Source: a virus. Taken from it: 31,723 nucleotides of DNA. Positions 7,598 through 31,723 of this stretch are shown here, in pieces; positions within the stretch are counted from its first letter, which is position 1; each line of letters begins with the position of its first letter. The position numbers and the translations under genes were made by a program. The stretch is taken from IMG/VR virus record IMGVR_UViG_3300017746_000073, positions 1-31,723 of that record. One strand, given 5' to 3'. The notes under the pieces were generated by a model. That model did no database searches, was not told the origin of the DNA, and saw only the letters and a list, made by a program, of their open reading frames with translations.

Positions 7598-7614
7598 AAA
7601 CATGTAATATTAAT

Positions 7615-7642
7615 ATAGGGCTCGCTTAATAGTGAGCTCTAT
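7615..7642 (+). promoter_or_regulatory. Intergenic hairpin upstream of the neck genes
   Basis: An 11-bp stem, ATAGGGCTCGC (7615-7625) with GTGAGCTCTAT (7632-7642), contains two G-T pairs and a 6-base loop, TTAATA. It ends 18 bp before the ATG at 7661. No T-run follows (GTTAAAATATAT), so a classical terminator is less likely than an RNA stability or processing element, though weak termination is possible. The 3' arm and its flank resemble the sequence after 16460 (GTGAGCTCT, then GTTAAAATA). Confidence 0.55.
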
Positions 7643-7660
7643 GTTAAAATATATAACAAT

Positions 7661-8638: not shown

Positions 8639-8644
8639 TAAGAT

Positions 8645-9949
8645 ATGCCAGAGATTGTTGTTCAACCATACACCCCACCTCAACCAAGTGGAGGCTTAAT
8701 TACGGAAACTAATGAGATATATTACAGCGGAGAACAAACTGTTTTAATTGTAGATCCTGTTGTTAACAGTAATGGCGATCAAACATATGGCAATGCGATA
8801 GAGTTAGGTTTTGATACAGAGTTAATTTATTATACAAACGATCTTACAGATGCAAATTTTAATAGAAACAATTTTAAAATATTTAAAAACGTATCGCCTA
8901 ATAATATTTCTAATGTTGAGAACTACGTAGAATATACAGTTCAAAATGGTTTTCCTGAAATTGGTTCAGTGGGGAATGTTTTTCAAGGTTATCTTAGTAA
9001 AAATATTTTAATTTTAGATTCTGAAGAATTTAATTTTGGAGATATATACAAAATAAAACTTAATACTCCACAAAAGCAACAAAACTTTGGAGGATATTCT
9101 TATATTAAACTAAGCGATATTATAAATAATTTTTTAGTTGCATACGTTGGAGAGGGTAAATTAATACCAGATGTTAAAAGAACAGACGTTATATTTCATG
9201 CTAAAAGAGCTTTACAAGAATTTAGCTATGATACACTTAAAAGCATTAAATCTCAAGAACTAAATATACCACCTAGCTTGAGTGTTATACTACCTCAGGA
9301 TTATGTTAATCATGTTAGATGCTCTTGGATAGATAGCTTAGGTGTACAACATATTATATATCCAGTAAATAACTTAACTTCAAATCCTTATACTATTCCA
9401 CTGCAAAGTCAAGACGGAGTTCCTAATCAGGATAACTTTGGAGAGAACTTACAAGGAGATTCTCTTACCGAAGAAAGATGGAAAAGCGCTAATGATAAAA
9501 AAATAACAGGTGTTTTTAGAAACTACGAAGACGTTAGTGAATTTGGTTGGTATGGCTACGACTGGGGTTGGGGAGGTTTTTACGGTAAAAGATACGGTTT
9601 AAAACCAGAAACAACTCAAATAAATGGCTGGTATAATATAAACGAAAGAGAAGGTAAAATTTCTTTTAGCAGCGACTTGTGCGAAAAGTTAATTATATTA
9701 GAATACATATCAGACGGTTTAGCGTACGACTTGGATACTAAAGTTCCAAAAATGGCTGAAGACGCTATGTATGCTTACATAAATTACGGTGTTCTAGCTA
9801 GTAGATCAAACGTACAAGAATACATAGTCAATAGATATAAGAGAGAGAAAAGCGCTAAACTTAGAAATGCTAAAATAAGACTATCTAATATTAAGCTTGA
9901 TGAGTTTGTTCAAGTAATGAGAGGAAAGTCTAAATGGATAAAACATTAA
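8645..9949 (+). CDS. Putative neck/tail adaptor (ring) protein
   Basis: This 434-aa protein follows the preceding neck gene at 6 bp and precedes the giant tail gene at 6 bp, so the three are probably translated together. After a Pro/Gly-rich beta N-terminus, residues about 155-225 hold a well-structured segment (KLSDIINNFLVAYVGEGK, then AKRALQEFSYDTL and LPQDYVNHVRCSWID) of a type common in structural proteins of environmental phages. An aromatic/Gly-rich stretch (FGWYGYDWGWGGFYGKRYG) lies near residues 299-317. The C-terminus is helical and basic. A tail-tube or adaptor role similar to podovirus tubular protein A is likely but not proven. Confidence 0.5.
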   Translation: MPEIVVQPYTPPQPSGGLITETNEIYYSGEQTVLIVDPVVNSNGDQTYGNAIELGFDTELIYYTNDLTDANFNRNNFKIFKNVSPNNISNVENYVEYTVQNGFPEIGSVGNVFQGYLSKNILILDSEEFNFGDIYKIKLNTPQKQQNFGGYSYIKLSDIINNFLVAYVGEGKLIPDVKRTDVIFHAKRALQEFSYDTLKSIKSQELNIPPSLSVILPQDYVNHVRCSWIDSLGVQHIIYPVNNLTSNPYTIPLQSQDGVPNQDNFGENLQGDSLTEERWKSANDKKITGVFRNYEDVSEFGWYGYDWGWGGFYGKRYGLKPETTQINGWYNINEREGKISFSSDLCEKLIILEYISDGLAYDLDTKVPKMAEDAMYAYINYGVLASRSNVQEYIVNRYKREKSAKLRNAKIRLSNIKLDEFVQVMRGKSKWIKH

Positions 9950-9955
9950 AATTTA

Positions 9956-12900
9956 ATGGCAGAAATTAAAAATAGTTTCTTAAAGTCAAAAATGAATAGG
10001 GATCTAGACGATAGATTAATCCCTAATGGCGAGTATAGAGACGCTATGAATATATCGGTTGGAAGATCAGAAGCAGATGACGTAGGCGCTTTAGAAAACA
10101 TTAGAGGTAATTCTAGATTACTAGGATTAGGTTCTAGGTTTGGAGAGTGTATAGGTCAATTTTTTGATGACACGGGTAATAGAATATTTCAATTTTACAC
10201 AAACTACTTAGATCCTCAACCTAATGAATTAACTAAAGCGCCTGATACTTCTTTATGCGCTATCACTGTTGTCAATTTTAATGGAAATATAAGTGAGCAA
10301 ATTTTAGTTCAAGGTAGCTTTTTAAATTTTTCTCAAGGAAAAAACTTTTTAATACACTCTGTAAACTTAATAGAGAATCAATTATTTTGGACAGACAATA
10401 GAAATCAACCTAGAAAAATAAACATAGATTTAGCCGAAGCAGATAGATTTCACTACAATCAAGAGTGGCAAATATCAGTAGCTAAATTTGCTCCAATATA
10501 CGCGCCATCATTAATTCACCAAACAAGATTAAAGGTGAAATCAGATGTAACAGATGGTACAACTGTTGAATTAAATTTTTCTGAATCTACAAATAAAAAA
10601 GAATCTTTTTCAATAACAGATATGACTCTAATAGGAGGTGGTATAGATAGCTGTGATTTTGTTTATATAAAATCTGCAACTACATCTGCAGGAGAGGATT
10701 ATTATACATGTGAATTAAACAAACCTGTAACCTTAACCGCTGATACTGACGTTAGGTTATTAGGATCAACTATGAGCAACGAAAGCGAGGATCCTAATTG
10801 GCCTGGTGACCCCGATTATTTAGAATCAAGATACGTTAGATTTAGTTTTAGGTTTAAATATGAAGACGACGAGTATTCAGCTTTTGCTCCTTTTAGTCAA
10901 ATAGCTTTTATACCTCAACAAAAAGGTTATTTTATTGATGGCGATGAGAAAGATGCTTTTAGAAGCACAATAATAAGATGGTTCGAAAACAATGTAAACC
11001 AGGTCAAGTTAATATTAAGACTACCTAGTAGAGCTACAAGTTTAGAAAAAAAATATAAAGTTTCTAAAATAGATTTACTGTATAAAGAAAGTGAATCTAC
11101 TGTAGTTAAAGTTTTAGATACTGTAACTGTTCAAGAAGTAGCATCTTCATCGGGTGATGAAAATTACTATGAATATATTTATCAGTCTCAAAAACCTTAT
11201 AGATCTCTAGCTGAATCTCAAACAACAAGAGTGTACGATAGAGTACCTGTTAGAGCCTTAGCTCAAGAAGTTTCTGGTAATAGAGTAATGTATGGAAACT
11301 TTTTTGCAAACTGGACACCGCCATCTAGTATTAACTATAGATTAACGTATCAAGAGAAGGGAGATAATTTTGATAATTTTGTAGAATATCCTAATCACAC
11401 TGTTAAAGAAAATAGAAATTACCAAGTAGGTGTAGTTTTAGCTGACAAGTATAATAGACAATCTTCAGTAATACTTTCTTCTTTGGATTCTAGCGGAGAC
11501 GCGCAAGGCTTAAAGGGCTCCACAATATTTGCTCCATATACAACAGAGATAAACAAGGTAGATGTAAAATGTTATTTTGGTAAAGCTATAAGAATGCTTT
11601 TTCAAAACCAAATAACTTCTAAAAGAAATATTCCAGTAGGAACTCCTGGACTATACGCCGAGCAAATTAGCGACGGCTTTGCTATAACAGCTAGTACGCT
11701 TTCAAATCCTCAAGGCGGACCTTACGAATATACTTTTACAATAAACACTACCGCTGGTATAACAAACACCATACCACAAATTGGAGAATATTTAAGAGGT
11801 AAGTATTGTGACTATACAGTTATTACAAGCGTTTCAAGTCTTGGTTCAAATGAGTATAAAGTTAGAACAGAAGAGCCCATAGCTGATTCGTATATTTTTG
11901 ATTATTTAAATTTACCAGCTGGTACAGAAGATATTAAATTTGCTTACACAAGAAATCCTGAGGGTTGGTATTCTTATAAAATAGTCGTAAGACAGCAAGA
12001 GCAGGATTATTATAACGCTTATTTACCGGGTATATTAAGAGGCTATCCTTTAGATCAAACAGATGGTCAAACAGTAACATACACTGTAGATGACGAAAAC
12101 ACCGGGACAGTTGTGCTTCCTAATATACAACACGGTGTCAATACTACAGATTTCCCTGTTGGTGAAAGAGGATCAACAGCACACACAGTGTTGATCAATG
12201 ACAATATAAACAAAATACCAAGAGATTTATCTGAAGTAGGTCCTGATCAAAAACAATATAGAAGTAGTGTAGAAATATATGGAAGAGTAGAAAATTTTGA
12301 ATCAGTATGTGAGCTATCAGAAGAAACAGGTTATGTTGGTTTTGCTGCTCAGGCAATAGCAGACTATATATCATATGACAAAACAGATCCTAATCTACCT
12401 GCATGTATTCAAAGATTAAGAGTAGGAGATGGAGTAGAGGGAGTTGGAACTCAAGGCGCTGGTGCTACAGGTACAACATATCCAGATGACTGGATTAGAA
12501 GCACTGTAATAACAGAAATAGATACAGATTATGCAGAAACACTTATAGATACTGTTGATCAAAACTATGCCAATGTCAATGCCGTAGATCTTGATGCTCC
12601 CAATGGAACTCTTCAAACTTATTTTAACGAAGCTGGCGCTGGAGTAATAAGCGTATTAGACCTAGGCACTGGCCTAACGCCAGCTCAAGATCAAACCACC
12701 ATTGTTACAGTAAGTAATGTTACTGAGGTTCAAGGCGTTATGACCGTGACATTCAACACAACTGTTGATATGTTTAGCAATAGACAATATCAGTTTACAT
12801 ATCCTCAAGATGAAGGTAGAATATATTTTAAACCAAAACAATTAATACTTGCTGAGTCTGGAGGCAGTAGCAGTACGGGTATGTCTTGGAAATTTTTCTT

Positions 12901-15900
12901 AGAAGAAAATAGACAATACTATCCTACTAGAAAAGCAGACGTTGTAAGCACCATAGCAGACGCAAGAAACCTAGGTTTTTTACCTACTACACTTGATAAC
13001 ACTAGAGGAACTGCTTCTTTGAATTTATATAATTTAGAAACAAATCCTTTAATAGGTAGAATATCTACAGTTAATCCTATAGGCGTTGATGGTAATACTA
13101 TGGTACCATTTTTAGCTATATACGAGACACAACCAGTTGAATCTTCTTTAGAGGTTTTTTGGGAAACTGCTTCTAGCGGTTTAATCTCAGATTTAAATGA
13201 TGATGTATTACAAGGCTTTGATGGTATTGTTGGGTTTAGCGCTATAAATTATACTCATTATGAAAATCAAGATAGAAGCGGAACCAGTGTAGTTACAGGC
13301 GCTGAAGATTCAAAATGGGTTACAGACGCTTTCTTTGCTGTAGATAACAATGGAACTCAGCAGTCCACGATAAGTATATCATCTTTCTCTGTTACAAATG
13401 GTAACGGTCAAGAAATAGGTCAAAAATTTGAATTATTTGAAGACTACAACGCTGTTGCTGGGCAAATGAGAATAGCTATAGCGGATGATAATTTTGTTTT
13501 TAATAACGACGCTGATGTAGTAGAAAATTACACTTTCACCTTAGATGTATCGTACGAAGGAAGTATAAATCCATATGCTTTTAGTGGAAGATTAAGAAAC
13601 GTAGATCCTGAAATAGATCCCACGTGTGCTTCATACTCTGTTAACACAGTAGCTACTAATCCAAATCCTTTAGTTACCTTAACAGGTAATAATGGTTCTT
13701 TTGTAGAGTCAAATTCAGATTTATACTGGGAAATAAACCCCAGCAATCAACCTATAGAACCATCTAGCGGTGAACCTTATTTTATATTAGAAAACTCAGA
13801 GAACACCGCTATAATATCTATAAACCCAGGATTAGACGAACCACCACCACAAGCAGTTTATAATCTAACGATAAGATTAATAGATGCTTATAATTTTGTT
13901 TTAAATCAACCTACTGGTACTTTAGATGCTGGTGATTTTGACAGCAAGCTAGACACATGTGATCAAGTTGGTTCTAATTTAGATATAAACGTAGGAGCTC
14001 AGCCACTACCAGCCTGCCTGCAAACAAGTGGTAATGGAATAGAGGGAGGTATAGATTTATTTTCTGACATTGCTTTAAGCGGTAATGGATTTAGAGCCGG
14101 TTATTCTTTTGATCCTTTTATTGAAGATCCTATTGGTTATTATCAAGACCCTACCACTGGGTGTATAGAAGCATTTAGAAATTATCCAAATCAATCAAAT
14201 GGGTATCCTGGTAGTTTTGTATATGGTGCTGTTTACACAGGAAGAACAGATATATTAAATATGGGTAATATACAACCTAATCCCTACACTCCGCCTTTAT
14301 TGCCTCCAGTTGGGCCAGGTGGTGTATTTGATCCAACAGTAGGTGGTTGGTTATATGAAAATGCAGATACAGATACTGGAAATACTTTAGCATCGCTGGG
14401 TCTTCCTTCTGTTGATGCAAATGGAAATCCTACTAGCACTACAAATCCTAGCGCAAAGCCATCACCGTTTATGTTGATTCATTTAGATGCAATTGCTGGA
14501 GCTGATCCTCAAGCTACTAATATATGTGAGCCACCGGCTAGATGTTGTCAAAACTTTACTGATGCGGGTTGTACTCAGGGTGTCATGAGGTTTAAAATGA
14601 TGACTATGACAAATCCCATGGAGTGTTATAGATATGATGTCCAATGTTCTGGGCAACCACAACCGGCTTATTCTCAATTTGGGCAAGGTATAAGTGGCGG
14701 TAGAATGAGATTTCATATTTTTCATAGAGAGCTATCTGATCAAATACCAAATCCAAATGAATGGCAAAAAGTAAACCACAGCAATAAAGATGCAACTTTA
14801 AATTACACTACAAGTTCTCCATTTGGTGCTGGTCAAAATGGTATATCAGCTTCATCTTGGCAGCGAATTCAAAGAGTTGATGGATCATTCTCAGCGGCTT
14901 ATCAAGCTGAGGCTTCATCTGCATTTTCTATAGATTGCACGGAAAGACCAGGTGAATATTATATAATATTTACCTATTACCATGCTGGTGGAACCTACTC
15001 TGGTTGTGGAAATGGAAGAGCATGGGTTCGTTTTATGGATGGTAACTTTACATATCCAAACGGCCCAGAAGGAGCTGAGCCATTAGCTAGACCAGCAGGT
15101 GCATATTACACTGGATTAACAGCTATACCAGGCGTTAGCAATGAAGCTAAAACAATAGAGTTTCTTGGAAACGGATTAACAGGTGAGCAATCAGATCCAG
15201 GTGGTTTTGGTTTTAAGTGGGAAAACCTAGGTATATCTGCTACAAACGGAGCTTTATATAATGATGACGTAGAAGACAATTGGTCTTCTAACTTAGACTC
15301 ACAAAGTAGTTTAAATATAGTGCTAGATGATCTTAGACCGTTAATATCAGCAGGACAAGGTATATTTACTGAAGAGTCATTTTCAACTACACCTACTGTT
15401 TCAATGTCAACTGCTCAAGAAAACTTTACGTGGGATTCTACGACTAATACACTTGTAGTTAATTACGATCCAAGCTTGTCAGTTGGTAGAATTCCTATAG
15501 CTCCATGCCGTGTTCAATATGAAGGCTTGTCTTATAATGGAGTCAGTGCTTGTCCTACAGATACAACTACTTATTCCGGAAACATAACCAGTGTAGACGA
15601 AGATAACAACACCATGACAATTAACGTTCAAGGCGGTACTAATAAACCGGGAATTTTTGCACCAGGAGCTACTTGCGCGCCAGACCAACCAGATCCAGTT
15701 GTGTTTATTATGCAAGACTTCCGTGGAAACGCCCTGCCTAAAACTTACGTTACCTCTGTAACCACGCAAGATACTGACACTAAAACTAGTTTAACAATAG
15801 CTAGTGATTTTAGTTTTGCTAATGGTGAAAAGCTTTGGTTTTTAACAGATCAATATCCTGGAGGTATAAGCAATGCTAGTTCTGCAATGTCTGAAAGCGG

Positions 15901-16471
15901 AACATATCCAGATCCTCCTGGTAATTTAGTTGTAGGAAATCAATACGGCTCAGGCTTGATATATGGCAACTCGGCATTTCCAGACGTTGTTAGTTCTTTC
16001 TACACAGATATTAATTTAACTCAGCCATACGTTCCAGATAGACCAGAAAGATATATATTAGTAAGTGGTGGAGAAGGAACTGGGGTTGGCTATCGAGGAT
16101 TATACTATAGCTCAACCGATTCTTTTCAAACCTTCCCCTTTAATAATGGTTTAGCAAATAGTGACGCAGGAAGCCCCGTTTATAACAGTCAAAACTATGG
16201 TCCATCTAACGCTCCAGAAGACGGTGCTCCATTCCCAACCGTTGGTGTAGCAGGCCAACCACCAGCAGATCCTTTTAGAAGATACAAGGGTTATGGAGGA
16301 TATAAAATGATAATAAAGCTAGATCAGTATGGTAAAATAGTTCCTAACGAGCAAGGTTATAGAAAGATATATCTTCAAGGATTTGGTGGTGTTGATGATC
16401 CTGAAACACAAACAAAAGCACAACCAGGTAGAGTTAACCAGCTATTTACTCACTATACCGTGAGCTCTTAG
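9956..16471 (+). CDS. Giant tail protein with stabilisation-protein-like N-terminus
   Basis: This 2171-aa virion protein starts with a segment (about residues 8-55, including KMNRDLDDRLIPNGEYRDAM and a VGALENIRGN element) of the kind that opens tail stabilisation or tubular proteins in many environmental podoviruses, where it seats on the neck. It continues as a long Asn/Thr/Ser/Gly-rich beta chain with few helices, typical of tail nozzle or host-recognition domains. A Cys cluster near residues 1524-1560 (CEPPARCCQNF, then further Cys) could form disulphides or bind metal. The C-terminal half has many repeated beta-type stretches and may contact the host surface. It ends in TAG. The following 558-aa gene looks like the missing C-terminal part of such a protein. 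Confidence 0.65.
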   Translation: MAEIKNSFLKSKMNRDLDDRLIPNGEYRDAMNISVGRSEADDVGALENIRGNSRLLGLGSRFGECIGQFFDDTGNRIFQFYTNYLDPQPNELTKAPDTSLCAITVVNFNGNISEQILVQGSFLNFSQGKNFLIHSVNLIENQLFWTDNRNQPRKINIDLAEADRFHYNQEWQISVAKFAPIYAPSLIHQTRLKVKSDVTDGTTVELNFSESTNKKESFSITDMTLIGGGIDSCDFVYIKSATTSAGEDYYTCELNKPVTLTADTDVRLLGSTMSNESEDPNWPGDPDYLESRYVRFSFRFKYEDDEYSAFAPFSQIAFIPQQKGYFIDGDEKDAFRSTIIRWFENNVNQVKLILRLPSRATSLEKKYKVSKIDLLYKESESTVVKVLDTVTVQEVASSSGDENYYEYIYQSQKPYRSLAESQTTRVYDRVPVRALAQEVSGNRVMYGNFFANWTPPSSINYRLTYQEKGDNFDNFVEYPNHTVKENRNYQVGVVLADKYNRQSSVILSSLDSSGDAQGLKGSTIFAPYTTEINKVDVKCYFGKAIRMLFQNQITSKRNIPVGTPGLYAEQISDGFAITASTLSNPQGGPYEYTFTINTTAGITNTIPQIGEYLRGKYCDYTVITSVSSLGSNEYKVRTEEPIADSYIFDYLNLPAGTEDIKFAYTRNPEGWYSYKIVVRQQEQDYYNAYLPGILRGYPLDQTDGQTVTYTVDDENTGTVVLPNIQHGVNTTDFPVGERGSTAHTVLINDNINKIPRDLSEVGPDQKQYRSSVEIYGRVENFESVCELSEETGYVGFAAQAIADYISYDKTDPNLPACIQRLRVGDGVEGVGTQGAGATGTTYPDDWIRSTVITEIDTDYAETLIDTVDQNYANVNAVDLDAPNGTLQTYFNEAGAGVISVLDLGTGLTPAQDQTTIVTVSNVTEVQGVMTVTFNTTVDMFSNRQYQFTYPQDEGRIYFKPKQLILAESGGSSSTGMSWKFFLEENRQYYPTRKADVVSTIADARNLGFLPTTLDNTRGTASLNLYNLETNPLIGRISTVNPIGVDGNTMVPFLAIYETQPVESSLEVFWETASSGLISDLNDDVLQGFDGIVGFSAINYTHYENQDRSGTSVVTGAEDSKWVTDAFFAVDNNGTQQSTISISSFSVTNGNGQEIGQKFELFEDYNAVAGQMRIAIADDNFVFNNDADVVENYTFTLDVSYEGSINPYAFSGRLRNVDPEIDPTCASYSVNTVATNPNPLVTLTGNNGSFVESNSDLYWEINPSNQPIEPSSGEPYFILENSENTAIISINPGLDEPPPQAVYNLTIRLIDAYNFVLNQPTGTLDAGDFDSKLDTCDQVGSNLDINVGAQPLPACLQTSGNGIEGGIDLFSDIALSGNGFRAGYSFDPFIEDPIGYYQDPTTGCIEAFRNYPNQSNGYPGSFVYGAVYTGRTDILNMGNIQPNPYTPPLLPPVGPGGVFDPTVGGWLYENADTDTGNTLASLGLPSVDANGNPTSTTNPSAKPSPFMLIHLDAIAGADPQATNICEPPARCCQNFTDAGCTQGVMRFKMMTMTNPMECYRYDVQCSGQPQPAYSQFGQGISGGRMRFHIFHRELSDQIPNPNEWQKVNHSNKDATLNYTTSSPFGAGQNGISASSWQRIQRVDGSFSAAYQAEASSAFSIDCTERPGEYYIIFTYYHAGGTYSGCGNGRAWVRFMDGNFTYPNGPEGAEPLARPAGAYYTGLTAIPGVSNEAKTIEFLGNGLTGEQSDPGGFGFKWENLGISATNGALYNDDVEDNWSSNLDSQSSLNIVLDDLRPLISAGQGIFTEESFSTTPTVSMSTAQENFTWDSTTNTLVVNYDPSLSVGRIPIAPCRVQYEGLSYNGVSACPTDTTTYSGNITSVDEDNNTMTINVQGGTNKPGIFAPGATCAPDQPDPVVFIMQDFRGNALPKTYVTSVTTQDTDTKTSLTIASDFSFANGEKLWFLTDQYPGGISNASSAMSESGTYPDPPGNLVVGNQYGSGLIYGNSAFPDVVSSFYTDINLTQPYVPDRPERYILVSGGEGTGVGYRGLYYSSTDSFQTFPFNNGLANSDAGSPVYNSQNYGPSNAPEDGAPFPTVGVAGQPPADPFRRYKGYGGYKMIIKLDQYGKIVPNEQGYRKIYLQGFGGVDDPETQTKAQPGRVNQLFTHYTVSS

Positions 16472-21536: not shown

Positions 21537-24500
21537 ATGGATTTAAATCCCCAACAACAAGCGAGGTTACTTGAGTTTCAACAAAACTTTCAAGGATCTC
21601 AGGAAGAATATGACTCTGGTCTAGCCGCTTTATACGATTCGTTTAAAGTAGAAAACGAGCAAGAAAAATTACTCCAAAAAATTAACGAAGCAAAGGCAAA
21701 AAAGGCCAATGCTTCTGCGGATCAACAGGATGCCCTTGCAGAAGCGAATCAAGATGGGGCATCAAACTCGGTTCCTGTTTCATTGGAGTCGTTTTCAAAA
21801 ATGAGTCAACCTCAAAAGCGTAGACTTTCTTTTAATGAAAGACAAAGACTAGAAAAAGAAAAAAAAGATAGAGAGCTATTCAGTGATTATGTTTTAAATC
21901 CTGATCAATTAGATTTTGACAAACAAAGAATTCCAGATGATTTGTATTGGTCAGACCTAATAGGTGGTAGAAGCATGTTTGATCCTGAAGGTGATGACAA
22001 ACTGGAGCAGTTTTCTAAATTATTTTACGCTAGTAAAGGTTTAGATTACAAAAAAATAAAAGCTGCTAAAGAAGATGGTTTAAGAAACGACCAAATGCAA
22101 AAGTTTATTGATAGTAATTTATACGAAACTAAAAGAGTACAGTCTGATCCTTTTATGATGTCAGGGCTTGCGCTTGGCATGGGTACATCAGGAGGTGGGG
22201 TTCCCACGTCAACTCTTGAGAATTTTTTAGTAGAAGACTATGTTGCAGATCAAGATACTTTAGATGCTTATCCAGAATTGTTTGACGAATATGGTGCTTT
22301 GAAATTTAAATCAAAAGAAGAGTTGAGAACTTTTGAAAGAGATTTAAGAGAAAAAAATGACGCATACGCTGAAATAACATCTTCTGAGTGGAATAGAGAA
22401 ATAGAGCACGAGCTTAATATGAAATTTAAAGCTATGCTAGAAGATTTAAAAATAGAGCAAGAGGTTGTTTTAGATTATATATCTGAAAAAACAAAGTCTG
22501 TAGAAGCTAATATAACAGAGAGATATAGAATACCAGAAAACACAGTAACAGACGAGAATGAAGATGGAACCGTAGACTTAGCAGATACTATTCAAGCGCT
22601 TGTTGGTGGCTTTAATACTAGAATAGAAGATTTGAATCAAGAGTTAAATGATACCGCTGGTATTGATATAGAAGGCTTAAAAGATTTTAAACCAGCAACA
22701 CAAGAGCAGTCTGACATAGTTAATAGTATAGTTGATCGATTAAATTTAGTATACGAAGAAGCTCAACCTTTAAACGAAGGCATGTCAACATTAAATAGTT
22801 TAGTATGGGCCACAGACGCAGCTTATGCCGGTCAAGAAGTTAGTCAAACGCTATTGAATTACGGTGATGTTTCAAGAATAAGAGGTGAATACGTCGACGG
22901 AAAGGGCAGTAGTATATGGAATAGTTTAAGAAAAGGTAAGGTTTCCGGTGAATTAAACGATGAGTTCTGGAGAATAACATACGGTATAACTGATCTTGAT
23001 GATCCTGAGCAGTTGAAAGAAGTTTCAGAAAAAGTAGCTTTACTTACTGCTAAAAACAATGGTATATTAACAAGTAGAGTTTGGGAGGAATACAGTAATG
23101 CAAATACTGTTTCTGCTAAAATGGAAATACTGTCTCAAGAGCCTGTAGAAATTTTCTTAAGTTTATTTGGAAACTCTATGAGTCAGTTTTTTGAAACTGG
23201 AGATGAGTTGTTTATACCTATAGTTGGAGCTGGCGCAGGCATTGGAGCCGCTAGTGGAGCTACTGCTGGTGGTGTTGGTGCTGTTCCTGGGTTTTTAACA
23301 GGAGCTAGTTACGGATTATCGACGTGGCAGGCTATAACAGCTTTAAACATGGAAGTTGGTAATGCTTATCAAACCGTGATGGTTGAAAAAGGATTAGATC
23401 TCTCTAACCCAGAAGATGTTATGGCTGGATTAAAAGATCCAGAGATAATAAAAGAAGCAAATGAAATTGGTTTTAAAAGAGGAATACCAATAGCGTTAAT
23501 GAACCTAGTAGGCGCCAAAGCTACAAACGCTATAGTAAGCAAAACAGCTTTATCTTCTGGAGGTGTAAGACTAGCTACAGCGGGAGTCACTGGATTTGTT
23601 GTTGATCCTGTTTTTGAAGGTACTGGTGAAGCTTTAGCTCAAGTTTTTTCAGGAGAGGGAATTAAAGCCACTGAAATAATGGACGAAATGATAGGTGGTA
23701 CGGCTGGAACTTCTAGCAATTTTGCTTTAAAATCAGCTAGAATGTCTATGTTTAATGAAGCTGGCAAGCAAGCTATTAAACTAAAAAATTTAGACAACAT
23801 GGTTAAAGGTAATTATACTGTAAACCAAGTAGAAAAATTTGTTAATAGACTTGTGGCTAAAAACAAAATAACAAAAGAAGATGCGGCTGCTATAAGAGAA
23901 AACGCTAGAGTTGTAGACGCGGTTAATAATCAAATTAAAAATAACTCTAAATCAGGAAAAGTAAAAGCAGGGGTAAAATCTCGGGTAGCAGATTTAATAA
24001 AGACTAAAGAAACAATAGAAAAACAACCTGGGCTTGCGGCTGCTGCAGCTAAAAGCATTAAACAGATTAACGAAGAGATATCTAACGTCACGTCTAACAA
24101 CGCTTTAAAAACAGAGGATAGTTTTGTAACTATAAAAGATTATGTATCAAAACAAACAAGATCTTTAAACGCAGCTATACCTTTCTTAAAGTCTTTAGGT
24201 ATAGATGCTGATGTTGAAATAATACAAATAAATTCTATAGAAGACTATAATAATTTGCCTTCTATGTTTAACAAAGATGAAGTTATAGGAACTTTTGAAG
24301 ACGGTAGAACATCTGCAGTTGTAAGTCCCTACGTAGAGGGTAAAAAACAATTTATAGTTGTTAATAACGAGAACGTAAAAAATAACGGAGCAGTTAACTT
24401 AGTAAACCAAGGATCCACAGATGTAGCAGCTGTTAGTGTTACTCACGAGGTTTTACATGCTGTCTTAGATAGAAGCTTTAGCGATACTCAAATAATAGAT

Positions 24501-27500
24501 CTCGGTAAAAAGCTTGATACTTATTTAAACGAGCAATCAGCTATAGACGGCAATGACGGTAAAAATATATCTGTAGGTGTTGTTGATAAAATAAAAAATA
24601 GATTAAAAGTTTACGGGTCTTACAATCAAGACGGAGTGTTTGTTCCTTCTAAAGAAAATCCTAACTATACAGAAGCAATGTACGCTTCAGAAGTATTTAC
24701 TAATTTAAGTGATGAAATGTCTATTGGAAATATTCAATGGAAAAGGCAAGACACAGCGTTTTGGCAGAGAGTTGCTAACGATATAACTGACTATCTTAAG
24801 TACAAGCTGGGTATGCCTGACAATATTATAAACGCTGCTGAAATACAAACAGGAGAGCAAGCTTTTAATTTTGTTAAAAATTTTAATAAAAGTTTTTACA
24901 ACAAACAGTCTTTAACTAAAAGACAAATAAAAGGTATTAGCCCTTCTACTATTGCCAACGAAGAAAGTGATACTTCTACAGAAGAAACAGAGGCTGCAAA
25001 CAGAAAGTCAACATTACCTGGCGACATTAAATCCAACTTAGATAAGTTTACGGGCCCTGCAGAATCTAGAAAATATACAAGTAACGCGTTGTTTAGAGCC
25101 ACTGAAGATTTTGCAAGCGCGTTTAATGCTTTAGAGAATACGGATTTATTAGATGGCTCTATTGCTGGTTTACCAGCTGTTACACAGGAATATTTAAATC
25201 AAAACCCTGAGTTTATTAGAGACGTAAAAGAAAGAATAGGTGAAAGATTTTTAAGAAACTATGATGCTGGTTTAAATAGTTTATTCGGATGGTTAACTGG
25301 TAAAAATAAAAGCGGTAAAAGTATTATAGAATTATCAGCTGGAGACATACAGAATAGAAATAAAAGAAGACCTGGAGGTACTTCAATAGATCAAGAAGTT
25401 TCAGAAGGATCTATTGGTATTAAAGAAAGATTACAGGCTGACGAGGACTCTACAATGTCTGATCTTGAAAACAAAGATTTATCTGTAACAGCTAAAGCTA
25501 AGCCTAAAGTAAAAACATTTGCTGAGTCTATAAGCGTAAGCCCTGAGCTTTCTGAAGAAATAACAAACACTGTTATAAACACTCTTGATCCAGAAAATAA
25601 ATCTTTACCATCAGTAACTCAGACTGAATTAAGAAAAAAGCTAGAGCAAGCTTTTTCAAAAGATCTTTACAAAAAAATAAGACCTTTGTTAGGTAGAAAA
25701 ATAGAAGATTATAAAAAGTTTTTAAATACTAACTATAAGGTTTTATGGGACAAAATACCTCAATCTGCTATAAACAAAAGATTTCCAGAGCTAGCAACTA
25801 TAGTAAACAAAAGGATGGGAGCTTCCCAGTCTAATGTAGCTGAAAGAAACGTTAAAAATATATACGCAGGTAATACACTAAGAATAAAAAGCAATTTAAC
25901 AAAGCAAGATTTTGTAGATTATTTTAGTTCAGATCCTAAAAAAACAAGAAGTAGAAAAGAATCATTAGCTCAAGTTATAGCCGTTGAACTAGCCAAAGAC
26001 GAAGTAAACAACGTGATGATGGACAATCCTGATTTAAGAAACAGGTGGATTGGTCAACAAGAATTAATGAATAACAACTTAAAAGAAAACTATGTTGCTA
26101 TGCTATCTGCTGCTATAGGTAGAGCTACCGTAGATTCTCAAGGATTAAGATACAGCCAAATAGTTCAAACAGCAGAAGAAATAGGTATATCTCAAGATCA
26201 GTTAGTTAATTTACTTAATGACTTAAGCTTAGACGAGATACAAGATCAACAACCTATAATATATGATTCTATAATAGATTCTTTTAATTACTGGGTAGAA
26301 AATAAAGTTAAAATAGTAGGAAGAATTAATGATGGGTTTGTAAAAGTTATATCAAAACAATTTCCTAGCTTTATAGGTAAATACAACAATGCACTTAAAG
26401 AATACGTTAAAAACAAAGAATACAACTGGTCGACTGATTACACGGATTTAGAAGGAAACAAAAGAAAAATATATAATTCACAAAGATACAACACTTGGCT
26501 TGACCAAACTTTACAGCAAATAAAATATATGCCTGTTGAAGCTTTAGAGGCTTTAAAAAATTTAAAAAACCAAAAATACAATTGGCTTGTTAAAATGCAT
26601 ATCAAAGACAACGGAAGCTCTAGAGGTGGATCTCCAGTTGGAATGGTTTATAATAAAAACGGTACATTAGTAAGTGAAGACAGACAGAAAAAGGTTACGC
26701 CTGAAGAGTATGCAGAAGGAAAAAGAATAAGCAAAGAGGTTTATAAAAGCAAGTTAGACAAAGCTATTGATGATGCTATTAAAAACAACAAAGCCACAGA
26801 GGAAACTACAGCTAAGTGGAAAAAATACGATAGCAACGATATAGAGTTAGGCAATAAAGGCGCTGCTACAATGGGACACATACTTAGCGTTTATAGAAAT
26901 ATAGCTAACAAACCTTGGGGTGCACAGACAAAAGCAAATGTAATGTCTAGAGTTATGGGGCCTAAAGGTAAAGCTTCTCTTAAATCAGGTTTAGCCTTAA
27001 TGGACGCGTATCATTCTAGCTTAAACGATTGGGTGAATAACGAAGTTAAAAATGGTAGAAATAGATCAGATGCAATTACATCTATATTTGCTAATATGCA
27101 AATGACTACTAACGCGGTTTATTCTGCTAGAGCTTACGCATCATTTACTTCCTTCTATTTTGTTGATGGTCCACAAGATATAAATAAGAAATTTGAAGAC
27201 TATAAAGGTGAGCACGTACAAGACTCTTCTTCTACTACTTCTTCAATATTCCTATCTATGTTGAACAATAGCTTTAATGATAACATAGAAGAGATACTTA
27301 ATGGCTACGAACAATCGGCAATGCTTGAGTCTGATACTAAAAGAATAGATGATTTAGGAGGTAGAAATAGCCCACTTGGTAATTTAAGATTCTTATTAGA
27401 TCCCAAGCTAGGTAAACAAATATTTAACTTAGATGGTATAAATAAATATCAAGAAGTTTTAAATGAATATGATCAAATATTTAGAACTTCTGTTGGCGCA

Positions 27501-30230
27501 AATTTAAGGGTTGATAATACTGCTTTGAAGCTTAGAAAAAGTCAAGGACCTAGAAAAGGTATAAGTGTTTGGGACTTTGATGACACGCTTGCTACTACTA
27601 AGTCTATGATAGGTGTAGAAATGCCCGCTGAAGAAACTATGCTTGATGTTGGTGCTAGAAGAATATTTAAAAAAGAATTCGAAAACAGACCTAGCTTTAA
27701 ACAAAACTTTAAAGACTTAAATAAAGAACAACAAGCAAGAGACTTAAAAGATGTTCCTGGCAGAAAATCAAAAATAGATGCTGAAACATTTGCTAAAACC
27801 TCAGACAAGTTAGCCGCGGAAGGCGCGCAATTTGATTTTAGTGAGTTCAACAAAGTTATGAAAGGCAAAAAAGGCCCTATGTTTGAAAAGGCTTTAGCTA
27901 GAAATAAAAAGTTTGGTAATGAAAATGTTTACATATTAACAGCTAGACCTCAAGCGTCAGCAACAGCTATACAGAAATTTTTAAAAGGCATAGGTTTAGA
28001 TATACCTTTAAAAAATATAACAGGGCTAGCTGATGGTAGACCAGAAGCAAAAGCAGCTTGGATTGAGGATAAAGTACTAGAAGGTTATAATGACTTTTAT
28101 TTTGCTGATGATGTTTATAAAAATGTAAAAGCAGTACAAGAATCTTTAGACAAGTACGATATAAAATCAAAAACAGAAGTTGCTGGTTTTAGAAACAGTA
28201 TGACTAATTCTGAAAAGTTTAACACTATACTAGAACAAGTTAAGGGCATACCTAAGGACGATCAGTTTTCAGACGCAAGAGCAAAAAACATAGGCAAGCA
28301 AAAAGGTAAATTTAAATTTTTCGTACCACCATCAGCTGAAGATTTTGTTGGACTTTTATATGGGTTTTTAGGTAAAGGAAAACAAGGTGATGCTCAAATG
28401 GATTTCTTCAAACAAACACTAATAAAACCTTTTAGTCAAGCAATGCAAGCTCTTTCTATAGCTAAAAATGCTTCAAGAAAAAAATATAGATCAATTAGAA
28501 AAAGCTTTAGTAAGAAATTCAGAAAAAGTTTACTTAAAGAATCAGAGTACTCAGGCTTTAGTAATGAAGATGCTGCTAGAGTTTACATGTGGCGTAAAGG
28601 CGGTTATGACATACCTGGTTTATCTAAGCAAGACATAAATAAATTAGTTGAAGTTGTAGAAAACAATGAAGAATTAAAGTCTTATGCGGATCAAATTTTT
28701 AATTCAACAGGCAAAGGATACGTTGAGCCATCTGAAAACTGGACTGCATCTGGTATAGCAGGAGACCTAAGAACTTCTTTAGACGATGTAAATAGAAAAC
28801 AGTATTTAGGCGAGTGGATAAAAAACAAGAACGAAATATTTTCTAAAGAAAACTTAAACAAGATAGAAGCCGCCATGGGTTCTAACTTTAGAGAAGCTCT
28901 TGAAGATATACTTTACCGCATGGAAAACGGTAGTAATAGAAATTTTGGAAGTAACAGATTGGTTAATGGTTTCATGAACTGGATTAATAACTCTGTAGGT
29001 ACTATAATGTTTTTCAATGCTAGATCAGCCGTGCTACAAACCATATCAGCTGTGAATTTTATAAACTTAACAGACAACAATCCTATAGCTGTAGCTAAAA
29101 CCTTAATTAATCAAAAACAATTTTGGACTGATTTTGTAAGTATATTTAATTCAGACTTTCTACAACAAAGAAGAGCTGGTAATACTACAGATGTTAGTGC
29201 AAGTGAAATAGCTAGCTACGTTAAAAACTCTAAAAACCCTATAAAAGCTGGAATTGCGTTCTTATTAGAAAAAGGTTTTATACCTACTCAAATAGCTGAT
29301 AGTTTTGCAATATCTATAGGTGGCGCTAGCTTTTACAGAAATAGAATAAACACATACGTCAATCAGGGTTTTAGCTTAGAAGAAGCTCAAACAAAAGCTT
29401 TTGGTGAGTTTCAAGAGCTTGCAGAATTATCGCAACAGTCTAGTAGAGCAGATCGTATATCTCAACAACAGTCAGGTCCTTTAGGTAGGGTTATATTAGC
29501 TTTTGCAAACACTCCGATGCAGTATACTAGATTAATTAAAAAGGCAACTTTAGATTTGGCTAACCGAAGAGCTGATTGGAAAACTAATTTATCTAAAATA
29601 GTTTACTACGGCGCTATTCAAAACTATATATTTAATGCATTGCAAAACGCGTTGTTTGCTCAGCTTTGGGATGATGACGAGGAAGAGGAAGAAAAAAAGA
29701 ATATAAGAATCGCTAGCGGTATGTCTGACTCACTTCTTAGAGGTATGGGTATTGGAGGTGCTGGTGTAGCTGCTATTAAAAATATAGTATTAAGAGTTAT
29801 AGAAGAATCTAAAAAAAGAAATCCTGAGTACACTAAAGCTTCTATTGACGCTTTAAGTTTGTCTCCTCCTGTTCAAAGTAAAATAAGAAAAATAGCTTCT
29901 GCTGGTAATATATTAAAATATGAAGGCGATGAAATATTTAAAAAAGGTTTATCAATAGATAATCCTGCTTTTATGATAACAGCAAAACTAGCTTCAGCTC
30001 TTGGAAATATACCTGCTGATAGATTACTTCAAAAGCTAGACAATTTAAGAGTGGCCATAGATGAAGACACTAAGTGGTGGCAGACTGTTGCCCTAACATT
30101 AGGTTGGGATCAATGGAGTTTAGGTCTTGGCCGTAAAAATAAAGATAAAGTAATAGTACCCAAAATGGATAACCTTAAAATAAAAGGTTTAAATTTTAAG
30201 AAACCAAAATTTAAAAAAATAAAATTTTAA
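21537..30230 (+). CDS. Giant multi-domain internal virion protein (polyvalent-type: zincin, sigma-like stretch, HAD)
   Basis: This 2897-aa protein is the largest in the window and the last of the ejection-protein run. In order: a charged helical N-terminus; a glycine-zipper hydrophobic segment at about 559-600 (FIPIVGAGAGIGAASGATAG); a zinc-metallopeptidase motif HEVLH at 970-974 with E1052 (ASEVF) as plausible third ligand; a stretch at about 1215-1320 resembling sigma-factor region 2 (FLRNYDAGLNSLFGWL, then SIDQEV at 1283); long helical linkers; a HAD-type module with DFDDT at 2013-2017, LTARP at 2134-2138 and DD at 2191-2192; and a long helical C-terminus with an acidic tract near 2711-2720. 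Injected polyvalent proteins of phages carry such mixed enzymatic modules. The role is inferred, namely entry into the host with DNA and action on host targets or membrane. All key HAD and zincin residues appear intact. Confidence 0.7.
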   Translation: MDLNPQQQARLLEFQQNFQGSQEEYDSGLAALYDSFKVENEQEKLLQKINEAKAKKANASADQQDALAEANQDGASNSVPVSLESFSKMSQPQKRRLSFNERQRLEKEKKDRELFSDYVLNPDQLDFDKQRIPDDLYWSDLIGGRSMFDPEGDDKLEQFSKLFYASKGLDYKKIKAAKEDGLRNDQMQKFIDSNLYETKRVQSDPFMMSGLALGMGTSGGGVPTSTLENFLVEDYVADQDTLDAYPELFDEYGALKFKSKEELRTFERDLREKNDAYAEITSSEWNREIEHELNMKFKAMLEDLKIEQEVVLDYISEKTKSVEANITERYRIPENTVTDENEDGTVDLADTIQALVGGFNTRIEDLNQELNDTAGIDIEGLKDFKPATQEQSDIVNSIVDRLNLVYEEAQPLNEGMSTLNSLVWATDAAYAGQEVSQTLLNYGDVSRIRGEYVDGKGSSIWNSLRKGKVSGELNDEFWRITYGITDLDDPEQLKEVSEKVALLTAKNNGILTSRVWEEYSNANTVSAKMEILSQEPVEIFLSLFGNSMSQFFETGDELFIPIVGAGAGIGAASGATAGGVGAVPGFLTGASYGLSTWQAITALNMEVGNAYQTVMVEKGLDLSNPEDVMAGLKDPEIIKEANEIGFKRGIPIALMNLVGAKATNAIVSKTALSSGGVRLATAGVTGFVVDPVFEGTGEALAQVFSGEGIKATEIMDEMIGGTAGTSSNFALKSARMSMFNEAGKQAIKLKNLDNMVKGNYTVNQVEKFVNRLVAKNKITKEDAAAIRENARVVDAVNNQIKNNSKSGKVKAGVKSRVADLIKTKETIEKQPGLAAAAAKSIKQINEEISNVTSNNALKTEDSFVTIKDYVSKQTRSLNAAIPFLKSLGIDADVEIIQINSIEDYNNLPSMFNKDEVIGTFEDGRTSAVVSPYVEGKKQFIVVNNENVKNNGAVNLVNQGSTDVAAVSVTHEVLHAVLDRSFSDTQIIDLGKKLDTYLNEQSAIDGNDGKNISVGVVDKIKNRLKVYGSYNQDGVFVPSKENPNYTEAMYASEVFTNLSDEMSIGNIQWKRQDTAFWQRVANDITDYLKYKLGMPDNIINAAEIQTGEQAFNFVKNFNKSFYNKQSLTKRQIKGISPSTIANEESDTSTEETEAANRKSTLPGDIKSNLDKFTGPAESRKYTSNALFRATEDFASAFNALENTDLLDGSIAGLPAVTQEYLNQNPEFIRDVKERIGERFLRNYDAGLNSLFGWLTGKNKSGKSIIELSAGDIQNRNKRRPGGTSIDQEVSEGSIGIKERLQADEDSTMSDLENKDLSVTAKAKPKVKTFAESISVSPELSEEITNTVINTLDPENKSLPSVTQTELRKKLEQAFSKDLYKKIRPLLGRKIEDYKKFLNTNYKVLWDKIPQSAINKRFPELATIVNKRMGASQSNVAERNVKNIYAGNTLRIKSNLTKQDFVDYFSSDPKKTRSRKESLAQVIAVELAKDEVNNVMMDNPDLRNRWIGQQELMNNNLKENYVAMLSAAIGRATVDSQGLRYSQIVQTAEEIGISQDQLVNLLNDLSLDEIQDQQPIIYDSIIDSFNYWVENKVKIVGRINDGFVKVISKQFPSFIGKYNNALKEYVKNKEYNWSTDYTDLEGNKRKIYNSQRYNTWLDQTLQQIKYMPVEALEALKNLKNQKYNWLVKMHIKDNGSSRGGSPVGMVYNKNGTLVSEDRQKKVTPEEYAEGKRISKEVYKSKLDKAIDDAIKNNKATEETTAKWKKYDSNDIELGNKGAATMGHILSVYRNIANKPWGAQTKANVMSRVMGPKGKASLKSGLALMDAYHSSLNDWVNNEVKNGRNRSDAITSIFANMQMTTNAVYSARAYASFTSFYFVDGPQDINKKFEDYKGEHVQDSSSTTSSIFLSMLNNSFNDNIEEILNGYEQSAMLESDTKRIDDLGGRNSPLGNLRFLLDPKLGKQIFNLDGINKYQEVLNEYDQIFRTSVGANLRVDNTALKLRKSQGPRKGISVWDFDDTLATTKSMIGVEMPAEETMLDVGARRIFKKEFENRPSFKQNFKDLNKEQQARDLKDVPGRKSKIDAETFAKTSDKLAAEGAQFDFSEFNKVMKGKKGPMFEKALARNKKFGNENVYILTARPQASATAIQKFLKGIGLDIPLKNITGLADGRPEAKAAWIEDKVLEGYNDFYFADDVYKNVKAVQESLDKYDIKSKTEVAGFRNSMTNSEKFNTILEQVKGIPKDDQFSDARAKNIGKQKGKFKFFVPPSAEDFVGLLYGFLGKGKQGDAQMDFFKQTLIKPFSQAMQALSIAKNASRKKYRSIRKSFSKKFRKSLLKESEYSGFSNEDAARVYMWRKGGYDIPGLSKQDINKLVEVVENNEELKSYADQIFNSTGKGYVEPSENWTASGIAGDLRTSLDDVNRKQYLGEWIKNKNEIFSKENLNKIEAAMGSNFREALEDILYRMENGSNRNFGSNRLVNGFMNWINNSVGTIMFFNARSAVLQTISAVNFINLTDNNPIAVAKTLINQKQFWTDFVSIFNSDFLQQRRAGNTTDVSASEIASYVKNSKNPIKAGIAFLLEKGFIPTQIADSFAISIGGASFYRNRINTYVNQGFSLEEAQTKAFGEFQELAELSQQSSRADRISQQQSGPLGRVILAFANTPMQYTRLIKKATLDLANRRADWKTNLSKIVYYGAIQNYIFNALQNALFAQLWDDDEEEEEKKNIRIASGMSDSLLRGMGIGGAGVAAIKNIVLRVIEESKKRNPEYTKASIDALSLSPPVQSKIRKIASAGNILKYEGDEIFKKGLSIDNPAFMITAKLASALGNIPADRLLQKLDNLRVAIDEDTKWWQTVALTLGWDQWSLGLGRKNKDKVIVPKMDNLKIKGLNFKKPKFKKIKF

Positions 30231-30234
30231 ACAA

Positions 30235-30396
30235 ATGAGCTTATCAGATTTTAAATTATACGCAATGAACGCAGGGACATTAAGTGTTACAACTTTTACT
30301 CACATAGAAGACGGATTAAAAATATTGCTGCTACTAGTTACTATAGGCTATACTGTTAGCAAGTGGAAGAACACAAAAAAAGAAAAAGAAAAATAA
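30235..30396 (+). CDS. Small single-TM protein, holin-like
   Basis: This 53-aa protein lies 4 bp after the giant gene, with the next gene 1 bp after its stop. Residues 1-27 are polar. A hydrophobic helix, LKILLLLVTIGYTV (about 28-41), is followed by a strongly basic tail (SKWKNTKKEKEK). One membrane span with a short charged C-terminus fits small phage holins or other lysis/membrane proteins. No endolysin is seen next to it, so lysis function is only a guess. The tight spacing and full coding continuity between neighbouring genes support it as a real gene. Confidence 0.6.
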   Translation: MSLSDFKLYAMNAGTLSVTTFTHIEDGLKILLLLVTIGYTVSKWKNTKKEKEK

Positions 30397-30397
30397 T

Positions 30398-30631
30398 ATG
30401 AACTCATCCCCATTTAATAAAAAAGGTTGTAAAGACGTTTTACAGGCACACTGCTTTGGTAACTCAAAAAAGAAAACAGCTTTACCAAAAAAAGAAGGAA
30501 AAAAAGACGCGTGTTACCATAAAGTAAAAAAAGCCGTAAAGGTTTGGCCTAGCGCGTATGCCTCTGGTCAGCTAGTTCAGTGTAGAAAAAGAGGAGCATC
30601 TAACTGGGGTGTTGGTAAAAAGAAAAAGTAA
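30398..30631 (+). CDS. Small basic Cys-containing phage protein (NSSPF N-terminus)
   Basis: This 77-aa, very Lys-rich protein carries the core ACYHKVKKAVKVWPSAYASG followed by a CRKRGASNWG element (about residues 43-72). I recognise that core as recurring in small proteins of environmental phages and giant viruses; the function is unknown. Residues 2-6 are NSSPF, close to the NSPF of the next two proteins. Four Cys residues could bind metal. Strong positive charge suggests nucleic-acid contact or packaging in the virion. Its stop overlaps the next start by one base (TAATG), so the two are coupled. Confidence 0.6.
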   Translation: MNSSPFNKKGCKDVLQAHCFGNSKKKTALPKKEGKKDACYHKVKKAVKVWPSAYASGQLVQCRKRGASNWGVGKKKK

Positions 30632-30996
30632 TGGCTTATACACAAAATAATTCACCGTTTCTATGCTGGAAATCGCATAAGCAAGTAGGTATGAAAATGA
30701 AGGGTGGAAAAGAAGTTCCTAATTGTGTGCCTAAAGACTCTGCTTTACCTAAAAAGAAAACAAAAGGTGGTGGTACTAGGAAGGTGTGTTTGCCTGCTGA
30801 CAAAGTAAGATCAATGAGTGCTGCTGAAAAAACAAAAGTTATTTCAGCAAAAGAATCTGCAGCATCAAAAGGTAAACAAAAAAGATCTAGTAAGTCTAAT
30901 GTTAAAGGTGCTAGAAAAAAAGGAGCAACACTTAAAGACTGGTTTGAAAAAGAAAATTGGATTAACGTTAAAACAGGAAAGCCTTGCGGCGATTAA
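30631..30996 (+). CDS. Small basic phage protein (NSPF N-terminus; DUF5872-like C-terminus)
   Basis: This 121-aa Lys-rich protein begins MAYTQNNSPF. A middle with CLPADKVRSMSAAEKTKV is followed by a Lys/Ser-rich linker and the C-terminal element LKDWFEKENWINVKTGKPCG (about residues 101-120). The last element resembles the domain I know as DUF5872, found in phages and giant viruses; the name is from memory and the function unknown. It shares an 8-of-10 N-terminal decapeptide with the following gene. Its start overlaps the previous stop. There is no membrane segment or signal peptide. Confidence 0.6.
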   Translation: MAYTQNNSPFLCWKSHKQVGMKMKGGKEVPNCVPKDSALPKKKTKGGGTRKVCLPADKVRSMSAAEKTKVISAKESAASKGKQKRSSKSNVKGARKKGATLKDWFEKENWINVKTGKPCGD

Positions 30997-31000
30997 TAAC

Positions 31001-31297
31001 ATGGCATATCAACAACACAACTCACCTTTTAGAATAACAGAGTCATCATATGAGAAGCAAAATAGAAAAATGCGGTCAAAGCATAAGTCTGAGACTGGTA
31101 AAACTCTAGGAGCTAGACAAACCAAAGGAACGGGTAAGCGTAGGGTGTCATTTGCTTGTAGATTCGGAAGCATGGCAGGCTCTTTGAAAAACTCTAAAGG
31201 CGAACCAACTAAATTAAAAATGGCGTTAAAGAAGTGGGGATTTGGTAGCAAAGAAGCTGCTAGAAATTTCTGTAACAAACACAAAGAAAAAAAATAA
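31001..31297 (+). CDS. Small basic phage protein (NSPF N-terminus; RRVSFACRFG domain)
   Basis: This 98-aa protein begins MAYQQHNSPF and contains RRVSFACRFGSMAGSL and LKMALKKWGFGSKEAARNF (about residues 47-90). This is a compact Arg/Lys-rich module that recurs in marine phage proteins (it may be the one called DUF6321, from memory). I chose the ATG at 31001 over the in-frame one at 30818. The longer form would overlap 180 bases of the upstream gene in another frame, whereas 31001 gives a 4-bp gap and exposes the shared N-terminus. Function is unknown; a packaged DNA-binding protein is possible. Confidence 0.65.
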   Translation: MAYQQHNSPFRITESSYEKQNRKMRSKHKSETGKTLGARQTKGTGKRRVSFACRFGSMAGSLKNSKGEPTKLKMALKKWGFGSKEAARNFCNKHKEKK

Positions 31298-31300
31298 ATT

Positions 31301-31441
31301 ATGGGAAAATTATTAGTAAAAATAGGATTATGGATGCAAGCTTGGTGGTGTAAGCTAATGTGTAAATGGAACTGGTTAGTGTCTAAGTTAATTGTAGACG
31401 TTAAAGACTGTCCAATAGCACAGTGCACGTGTAAAAAATAA
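31301..31441 (+). CDS. Trp/Cys-rich 46-aa protein of unknown function
   Basis: This small gene starts 3 bp after the previous stop. Residues 1-29 form a possible amphipathic helix with many Trp (MQAWWCKLMCKWNWLVSK), and the end has DCPIAQCTCKK. The five Cys at roughly 17, 21, 37, 42 and 44 could bind a metal or form disulphides. The high Trp content suggests a membrane-surface role, perhaps in lysis. It is the last + strand gene before the terminator. The coding call rests on spacing, composition and frame; no family was identified. Confidence 0.5.
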   Translation: MGKLLVKIGLWMQAWWCKLMCKWNWLVSKLIVDVKDCPIAQCTCKK

Positions 31442-31487: not shown

Positions 31488-31515
31488 GAAGGGGATCTCA
31501 AATGAGGTCCCCTTC
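31488..31515 (+). terminator. Strong hairpin terminator ending the virion gene operon
   Basis: A 13-bp stem, GAAGGGGATCTCA (31488-31500) with TGAGGTCCCCTTC (31503-31515), contains one T-G pair and a very short loop. It is followed by ATTGTTTTTATCC, giving a U-run on the + strand. It sits between converging genes, 8 bp from the nrdA stop. On the minus strand no A/T tract of comparable quality follows, so it mainly serves the + strand operon. Confidence 0.85.
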
Positions 31516-31522
31516 ATTGTTT

Positions 31523-31723
31523 TTATCCGTCACAGGCAATACAATCTTCACTCATAGCTTGTTGTGCTATATCGCCACGTAGTACTGATTCGGTTCTAGT
31601 ATAGTATAAGGTTTTAATACCTTTTTTCCATGCTGACATATGAACTTGATTAATCCATTTAGGTGTAGCTACACTAGGAAATGCTAGGTTTAAACTAACA
31701 GACTGATCTATGTACTGTTGTCG
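31523..31723 (-). CDS. nrdA: Class I ribonucleotide reductase large subunit, C-terminal end (partial)
   Basis: On the minus strand the window ends inside a gene whose last 66 residues are visible. They contain QQYIDQSVSLNLAFPS, WKKGIKTLYYTRTES and a terminal EDCIACDG. The IDQS-SLN loop and the K-G-x-K-T-x-YY-x-R-T segment are characteristic of the catalytic subunit of class I ribonucleotide reductase, which makes dNTPs. The CIAC pair at the end is the redox-active tail that re-reduces the active site. Phages often encode this enzyme to boost DNA synthesis. The 5' part lies beyond the window. It is transcribed towards the virion operon and marks the start of the metabolism/replication region. 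Confidence 0.9.
   Translation of the reverse strand, partial: RQQYIDQSVSLNLAFPSVATPKWINQVHMSAWKKGIKTLYYTRTESVLRGDIAQQAMSEDCIACDG

Follow-up and report, generated by a model that had tools for sequence, protein, structure and literature searches.

A shared N-terminal SPF motif on small basic proteins of a marine phage lineage, a possible head-targeting label

Three adjacent small genes near the end of a marine phage record encode proteins that begin alike and then continue with different bodies, which raises the question of what the common peptide is for. The source is a 31.7-kb viral record in IMG/VR from a marine virus of bacteria, and the window analysed here is the whole of that stretch (31,723 nucleotides). 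Our preferred answer is that the peptide is a lineage-specific signal that directs small cargo proteins into the phage head during assembly.

Three small genes with a common start

The plus strand carries terminase, portal and structural genes (positions 1-30230) and then, with the strand unchanged, five small genes. The nrdA gene (31523-31723) lies on the opposite strand and converges on the late genes. The terminase is 68% identical to that of an uncultured Manatee Spring phage and ~48% identical to those of the Flavobacterium elemo phages, and phages with related terminases infect Flavobacterium and Cellulophaga; given these relationships, the lineage is podovirus-type and its hosts are probably marine Flavobacteriia. 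The portal is P22-like, unlike that of T4. The features on which the argument rests are as follows.

4135-5256, plus strand: acidic protein of 373 aa, candidate scaffold, between the portal and putative capsid genes
5271-6770, plus strand: virion structural protein of 499 aa, putative major capsid protein (phrog_13704, 1.3e-92)
30235-30396, plus strand: small membrane-type protein of 53 aa, untagged and lineage-conserved, directly upstream of the tagged genes
30398-30631, plus strand: basic protein of 77 aa, start MNSSPFNKKGC, with an MNSSPF tag and a DUF5872-like body (KDACYHKV...VWPSAYASG)
30631-30996, plus strand: basic protein of 121 aa, start MAYTQNNSPFL, with the tag MAYTQNNSPF (30631-30660)
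31001-31297, plus strand: basic protein of 98 aa, start MAYQQHNSPFR, with the tag MAYQQHNSPF (31001-31030) and a DUF6321 body
31301-31441, plus strand: Trp/Lys-rich protein of 46 aa, untagged and lineage-conserved, directly downstream of the tagged genes

A preliminary description of this DNA had pointed to a common N-terminus on three small basic proteins with different bodies, and each element of it is real. The second and third proteins agree at 8 of their 10 N-terminal residues, NSSPF occupies residues 2-6 of the first (codons at 30401-30415), and the calculated pI values are 10.2-10.7. Of the eight residues common to the second and third proteins, three are encoded by different synonymous codons (GCT/GCA, AAT/AAC, CCG/CCT). 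The three genes follow one another closely, with the first and second overlapping at TAATG. For the third we took the ATG at 31001 as the start, matching the starts of homologues, where the ORF lister gave a GTG at 30818.

The bodies belong to three families. The 98-aa protein is a member of DUF6321 (PF19846; 32.5 bits, E = 1.4e-7, above the curated cut-off of 28.5 bits). The 77-aa protein reaches 18.3 bits against DUF5872 (PF19197), below the curated cut-off of 27.5 bits; its relation to phrog_727 is stronger (3.4e-19). The 121-aa protein combines a CWKxxKxVGMKMKGGKxVPNCVP module with a following KGGGT...LxDWF...W module, and its family is unnamed. An AlphaFold2 model of the 98-aa protein (mean pLDDT 83) has four helices (residues 14-32, 46-57, 71-78 and 84-93) preceded by a tag whose residues 1-7 fall below 50. 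The model of the 121-aa protein, with a mean pLDDT of 63, is usable only for tag disorder, and there residues 1-9 are below 50. A search of the PDB with the DUF6321 model returned no significant fold match, and none of the three window proteins has a Pfam match to the P22 gp7, gp16 or gp20 families.

The tag (SPx) is absent from the structural genes of the window, and structural proteins do not keep SPx as a set of sites. The acidic protein at 4135-5256 has a pI of 5.0 with a basic C-terminus and is conserved in 10 lineage genomes, an elemo phage and MW202828. The two untagged proteins that flank the tagged genes vary in their order beside them within the lineage and are holin-like candidates. 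The late region also holds two giant ORFs (21537-30230, 2897 aa; 9956-16471, 2171 aa), the larger of which may encode a virion component that leaves the capsid along with the DNA. An inverted repeat (31489-31514, AAGGGGATCTC/GAGGTCCCCTT) sits where the late genes and nrdA converge, and by eye T-rich sequence lies 3' of it; the repeat is likely a terminator, possibly bidirectional.

Spread and conservation of the motif

The tag is not peculiar to this record. Searched as a DNA pattern, MAYxQxN[S]PF matches at least 119 viral stretches in IMG/VR; among the matches listed, 88 different bodies stand behind 79 different tag DNAs. Every degenerate tag position in these listed matches uses mixed codons, and serine is encoded by both TCN and AGY. 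The earlier proposal that selection acts on the peptide is therefore well founded. Across 257 Gb of bacterial and archaeal genome sequence the pattern matched 11 times, always in a chance-like way and never in anything resembling a tagged gene, so a general host motif can be set aside.

The motif is also concentrated at protein starts. In 77 loci fetched by DUF6321 homology, with the DUF6321 genes themselves left out, SP[FLIM] lies within residues 2-18 of 66 out of 891 distinct N-termini (7.4%), compared with 59 out of 9132 internal windows (0.65%), an 11-fold enrichment (Fisher p = 7e-37; shuffled mean 10.8, maximum 18) in a selection that is not wholly tag-free because one of the six search peptides held part of the tag. 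Depending on the clustering used, the tagged bodies fall into 23 clusters (very permissive joining) to 59, and 89 loci have two or more tagged genes. Variant starts include MAFKxxxSPL, MSKFSSPFMAKSPL, MTYISPF and MKPFTSKHCTPIxYGSPL. On contigs read whole, the tagged genes form groups that share the strand of the structural genes and lie close to one or other end of the structural block, and no tag was seen on replication or metabolism genes.

The tag follows one phage lineage. All 20 tagged contigs tested carry the terminase of this phage at 76-90% identity. The collections used yielded no SPx-tagged isolate: the whole elemo record has no tag, and phi38:1 (first 50 of 72.5 kb) and MW202828 show only scattered chance-like matches, none on tagged cargo families. 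In the IMG/VR contig of L162 (G016) the terminase is split at 7231-8924 with several stop codons between the pieces, which could reflect an intron, an insertion or an assembly error. Tag variants within a genome covary weakly in one test (16.75 versus a permuted mean of 16.08, sd 0.30; 11 of 1000 permutations reach 16.75) and not in a second (23 of 36 concordant versus 21.9 expected, p = 0.37). Since the signal is weak (p ~0.01) or absent, we make no claim of fine covariation.

Within cargo families the motif is kept in most homologues, not in all, so the refuting condition set in the preliminary description, a motif that homologues do not conserve, does not apply. The proline (Pro9) is invariant in 21 of 21 rows of the lineage DUF6321 alignment, and most of these homologues have an [STG]P[FLIV] N-terminus, with TPF, TPL, GPL, SPT and SPN as minor forms. 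The motif often directly abuts the DUF6321 body (SPLNIKEKAYEKQNR), so part of it could belong to that fold. Of 24 small DUF5872-like proteins in the lineage, 17 have SPx among their first 20 residues, against 0 of 16 in comparison loci, half of which have another tag (p = 7e-6). Some lineage members carry cargo without SPx, either as MAYKVKGPAIKEK (L163, L176) or with MASALYKKLT-type starts (L120, L121, L123).

The preliminary description had suggested DNA-binding cargo, a restriction that the wider tagged set does not support. A tagged protein of L080 combines a glycine zipper with a weak match to P22 gp7 (E = 0.029), and others are putative HExxH proteins. The HExxH-like motif was seen on tagged proteins of L034, L036 and L119 (MSFKLTSPF...NHENVHIEQ) and of L023 (MAFKITPF...NHEMVHIDQ), which suggests a metallopeptidase carried as cargo; the L119 protein has no Pfam match.

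The same cargo behind other N-termini

All three bodies recur as modules of larger proteins in T4-like cyanophages, and the marine T4-like multi-module proteins (PF19846, PF19197, phrog_727/38880/3477) are built from the same body modules. In S-CREM2, gp160 fuses a DWF module, a CWxGY module and a DUF5872-like module, and it is identical to the 77-aa window protein at 42 of 72 residues (58%). The window lineage, by comparison, has these modules as separate genes or as SPx-joined fusions, each of them tagged. Mass spectrometry of S-CREM2 virions detected ORF160 with 7 unique peptides, with the caveat that highly expressed proteins may co-purify (PMC10665884). The coordinates of gp160 (128342-129235) are those of this ORF160. 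Its start is not CTS-like. A cytidylyltransferase of the same phage (gp154), also found in virions, has the CTS-like start MKNFSSFLTE. In Synechococcus phage Sf-CH8 (PV340853), a gene annotated as cytidyltransferase (118588-120717) holds a CWxxHKxVGMKMKGGKxVPNCVP module.

Relatives of the cargo can carry the T4 type of tag where the window proteins carry SPx. The T4 internal proteins IPII and IPIII start with MKTYQEFIAE and IPI with MKTFKEFTST. For IPIII, the 10 N-terminal residues are enough for targeting to the head, with positions 4 and 7 contributing most (PMC9026906). In S-RS29, MKTFNQFQAE is followed by CWKTHKKVGMKMKGGKLVPNCVP, and in the window MAYTQNNSPFL is followed by CWKSHKQVGMKMKGGKEVPNCVP; after the tag, 21 of 28 residues are identical. 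CTS-like starts also precede cargo in L297 (MKTFKEFQEG, then AAWTKKAGK), L509 (MKSFLEHLTET, then AAW), L540 (MKKFNEFINE...) and L551 (MVTFKEFITE...), and the proteins of the first three reach 66-88 bits against PF19846, the family of the 98-aa protein. Two overlapping genes of L509 (5528-5974 and 5971-6264), a contig whose phage type is unassigned, encode different bodies that both start with MKSFxxxLxE. The pair mirrors the arrangement in the window, with a shared start on differing bodies.

A third label occurs in sister podoviruses whose terminase is 49% identical to that of the window. There, three nearby small genes with different bodies share a KYKKGG tag (MKPVKKYKKGGAV, MKAVKYQKGGKL and MKACKSYKKGGRV). 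Loci with this system include L576 (2106-6119) and L578 (8462-9105), with three different small proteins, and the related forms RxYYKKGG and RGxGRAxxxxGG were seen in L537, L560, L573 and L575. Many cargo relatives in other phages have no recognisable tag (MAKTAAW...).

The exchange extends to module boundaries inside fused proteins. Of 266 internal module starts in the T4-like relatives, 175 have [LIV]xE in the preceding 10 residues (shuffled mean 71, maximum 90) and none has SPx there. The tagged lineage has SPx before 29 of 43 internal module starts (shuffled mean 1.5, maximum 7). The motif [L/I]xE is that of the gp21 prohead protease (PMC9026906). Taken together with the swap of CTS-like starts at N-termini, this places SPx at both positions on homologous cargo, that of the targeting sequence and that of the protease motif. 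A search for the S77 (gp21-type) prohead protease found it in 0 of 13 lineage contigs and in 7 of 7 T4-like contigs above 100 kb, so the CTS mechanism is not simply transferable to this lineage.

A candidate head-targeting label

The likeness to the T4 CTS (IPI, IPII, IPIII, Alt) is one of arrangement. Both systems place about 10 common N-terminal residues on unrelated bodies and both have small basic cargo; in T4-like marine phages, CTS-like N-termini occupy the same place on homologous modules. Unlike the CTS, the window tags lack MK[T/S][F/Y]xxF with its key residues 4 and 7, have no L/I-x-E cleavage site, and belong to a lineage in which the S77 search was negative. Sequence, cleavage motif and protease thus place the tag outside the T4 CTS family. 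The comparison with T4 internal proteins made in the preliminary description stands where it concerns cargo families, and for packaging it extends to the three-module relative in S-CREM2 virions and not directly to a tagged protein. P22 offers another parallel, as its gp7, gp16 and gp20 are held inside the head until they leave it together with the DNA, and the tagged L080 protein is weakly gp7-like; the window proteins are not homologous to them, and P22 is not known to use a shared N-terminal tag. Encapsulin targeting peptides are short, disordered and dock cargo inside an HK97-fold shell. These serve cellular compartments and not phage heads, and the resemblance is one of description.

We conclude, with a probability of roughly 0.6, that SPx is a lineage-specific prohead targeting, and perhaps processing, signal that works like the CTS. 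In this scheme, (N)SPF would be a short, disordered N-terminal label that recruits small cargo into the assembling podovirus head. A common partner would bind [S/T]-P-[F/L/I/V], with the acidic scaffold candidate (4135-5256) or the interior surface of the shell as the likeliest choice; we infer the putative capsid protein (5271-6770) as an alternative candidate. The basic cargo would be enclosed ahead of DNA packaging and would probably enter the host together with the DNA. Because the motif precedes each module in fused cargo, SPx might also be the site at which modules are separated.

Several other explanations were weighed. The peptide could recruit its bearers to a partner outside the virion, such as a replication centre, the host nucleoid or a host factor, during late takeover of the infected cell. 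The small, very basic cargo would suit such a role, the tagged genes also adjoin nrdA, and the virion detection so far concerns the untagged relative gp160 and not a tagged protein. We nevertheless consider it unlikely, since cargo relatives sit behind a proven type of head-targeting tag in T4-like phages, one relative was found in virions, and the tag keeps to the structural-gene strand and was not seen on replication or metabolism genes. That SPx is mainly a proteolytic site, at which some maturation protease trims N-termini and cuts fused cargo while the bodies provide recruitment (for example by charge), draws on its placement exactly at the internal boundaries where T4-like relatives have gp21-type [LIV]xE. 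This is rather unlikely given the protease result, which covers the S77 family, and the lack of a conserved set of sites in structural proteins; moreover, a bare site need not open so many single-domain proteins.

A generic linker or helix cap that forms part of the adjoining folds and was carried along in domain shuffling, without any targeting, would fit the invariant proline and the close junction in DUF6321 proteins. We regard it as very unlikely because homologues of the same folds elsewhere lack SPx or have other tags, SPx sits on unrelated bodies, and the tag is disordered in the AlphaFold2 models. Highly improbable, finally, is a shared start left by recent gene duplication or conversion, or kept for translation initiation, with no selection on the peptide. 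The tight spacing of the genes and the TAATG overlap speak for it, but the codon diversity among the listed matches largely refutes a duplication or DNA-level artefact, and SPx is found between the modules of fused proteins too.

Returning to head targeting by SPx, a broader and more tentative proposal is that marine tailed phages hold common head-cargo modules to which each lineage adds its own N-terminal address peptide (MKTFxxF, SPF or YKKGG). The label would evolve with the head-assembly machinery, and cargo would move between lineages by label change. T4 already provides the precedent for N-terminal head targeting; what appears new is the motif itself, the lineage that bears it, and the way common cargo recurs behind different tags. 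In the literature searched, with subscription papers and preprints outside its scope, we found no description of such a phage tag, and the one paper found to name DUF5872 or DUF6321 does not concern phages.

If head targeting by SPx is correct, the cargo of uncultured phages would be readable from sequence, and a lineage tag would mark candidates for delivery into the host. The CTS principle of T4 would extend to podoviruses without a T4-type protease, and DUF5872, DUF6321 and phrog_727 would gain a function. The tags would also add to the short peptides with which proteins can be loaded into phage heads. A testable question opens with them, namely how unrelated phages share internal proteins despite different head assembly.
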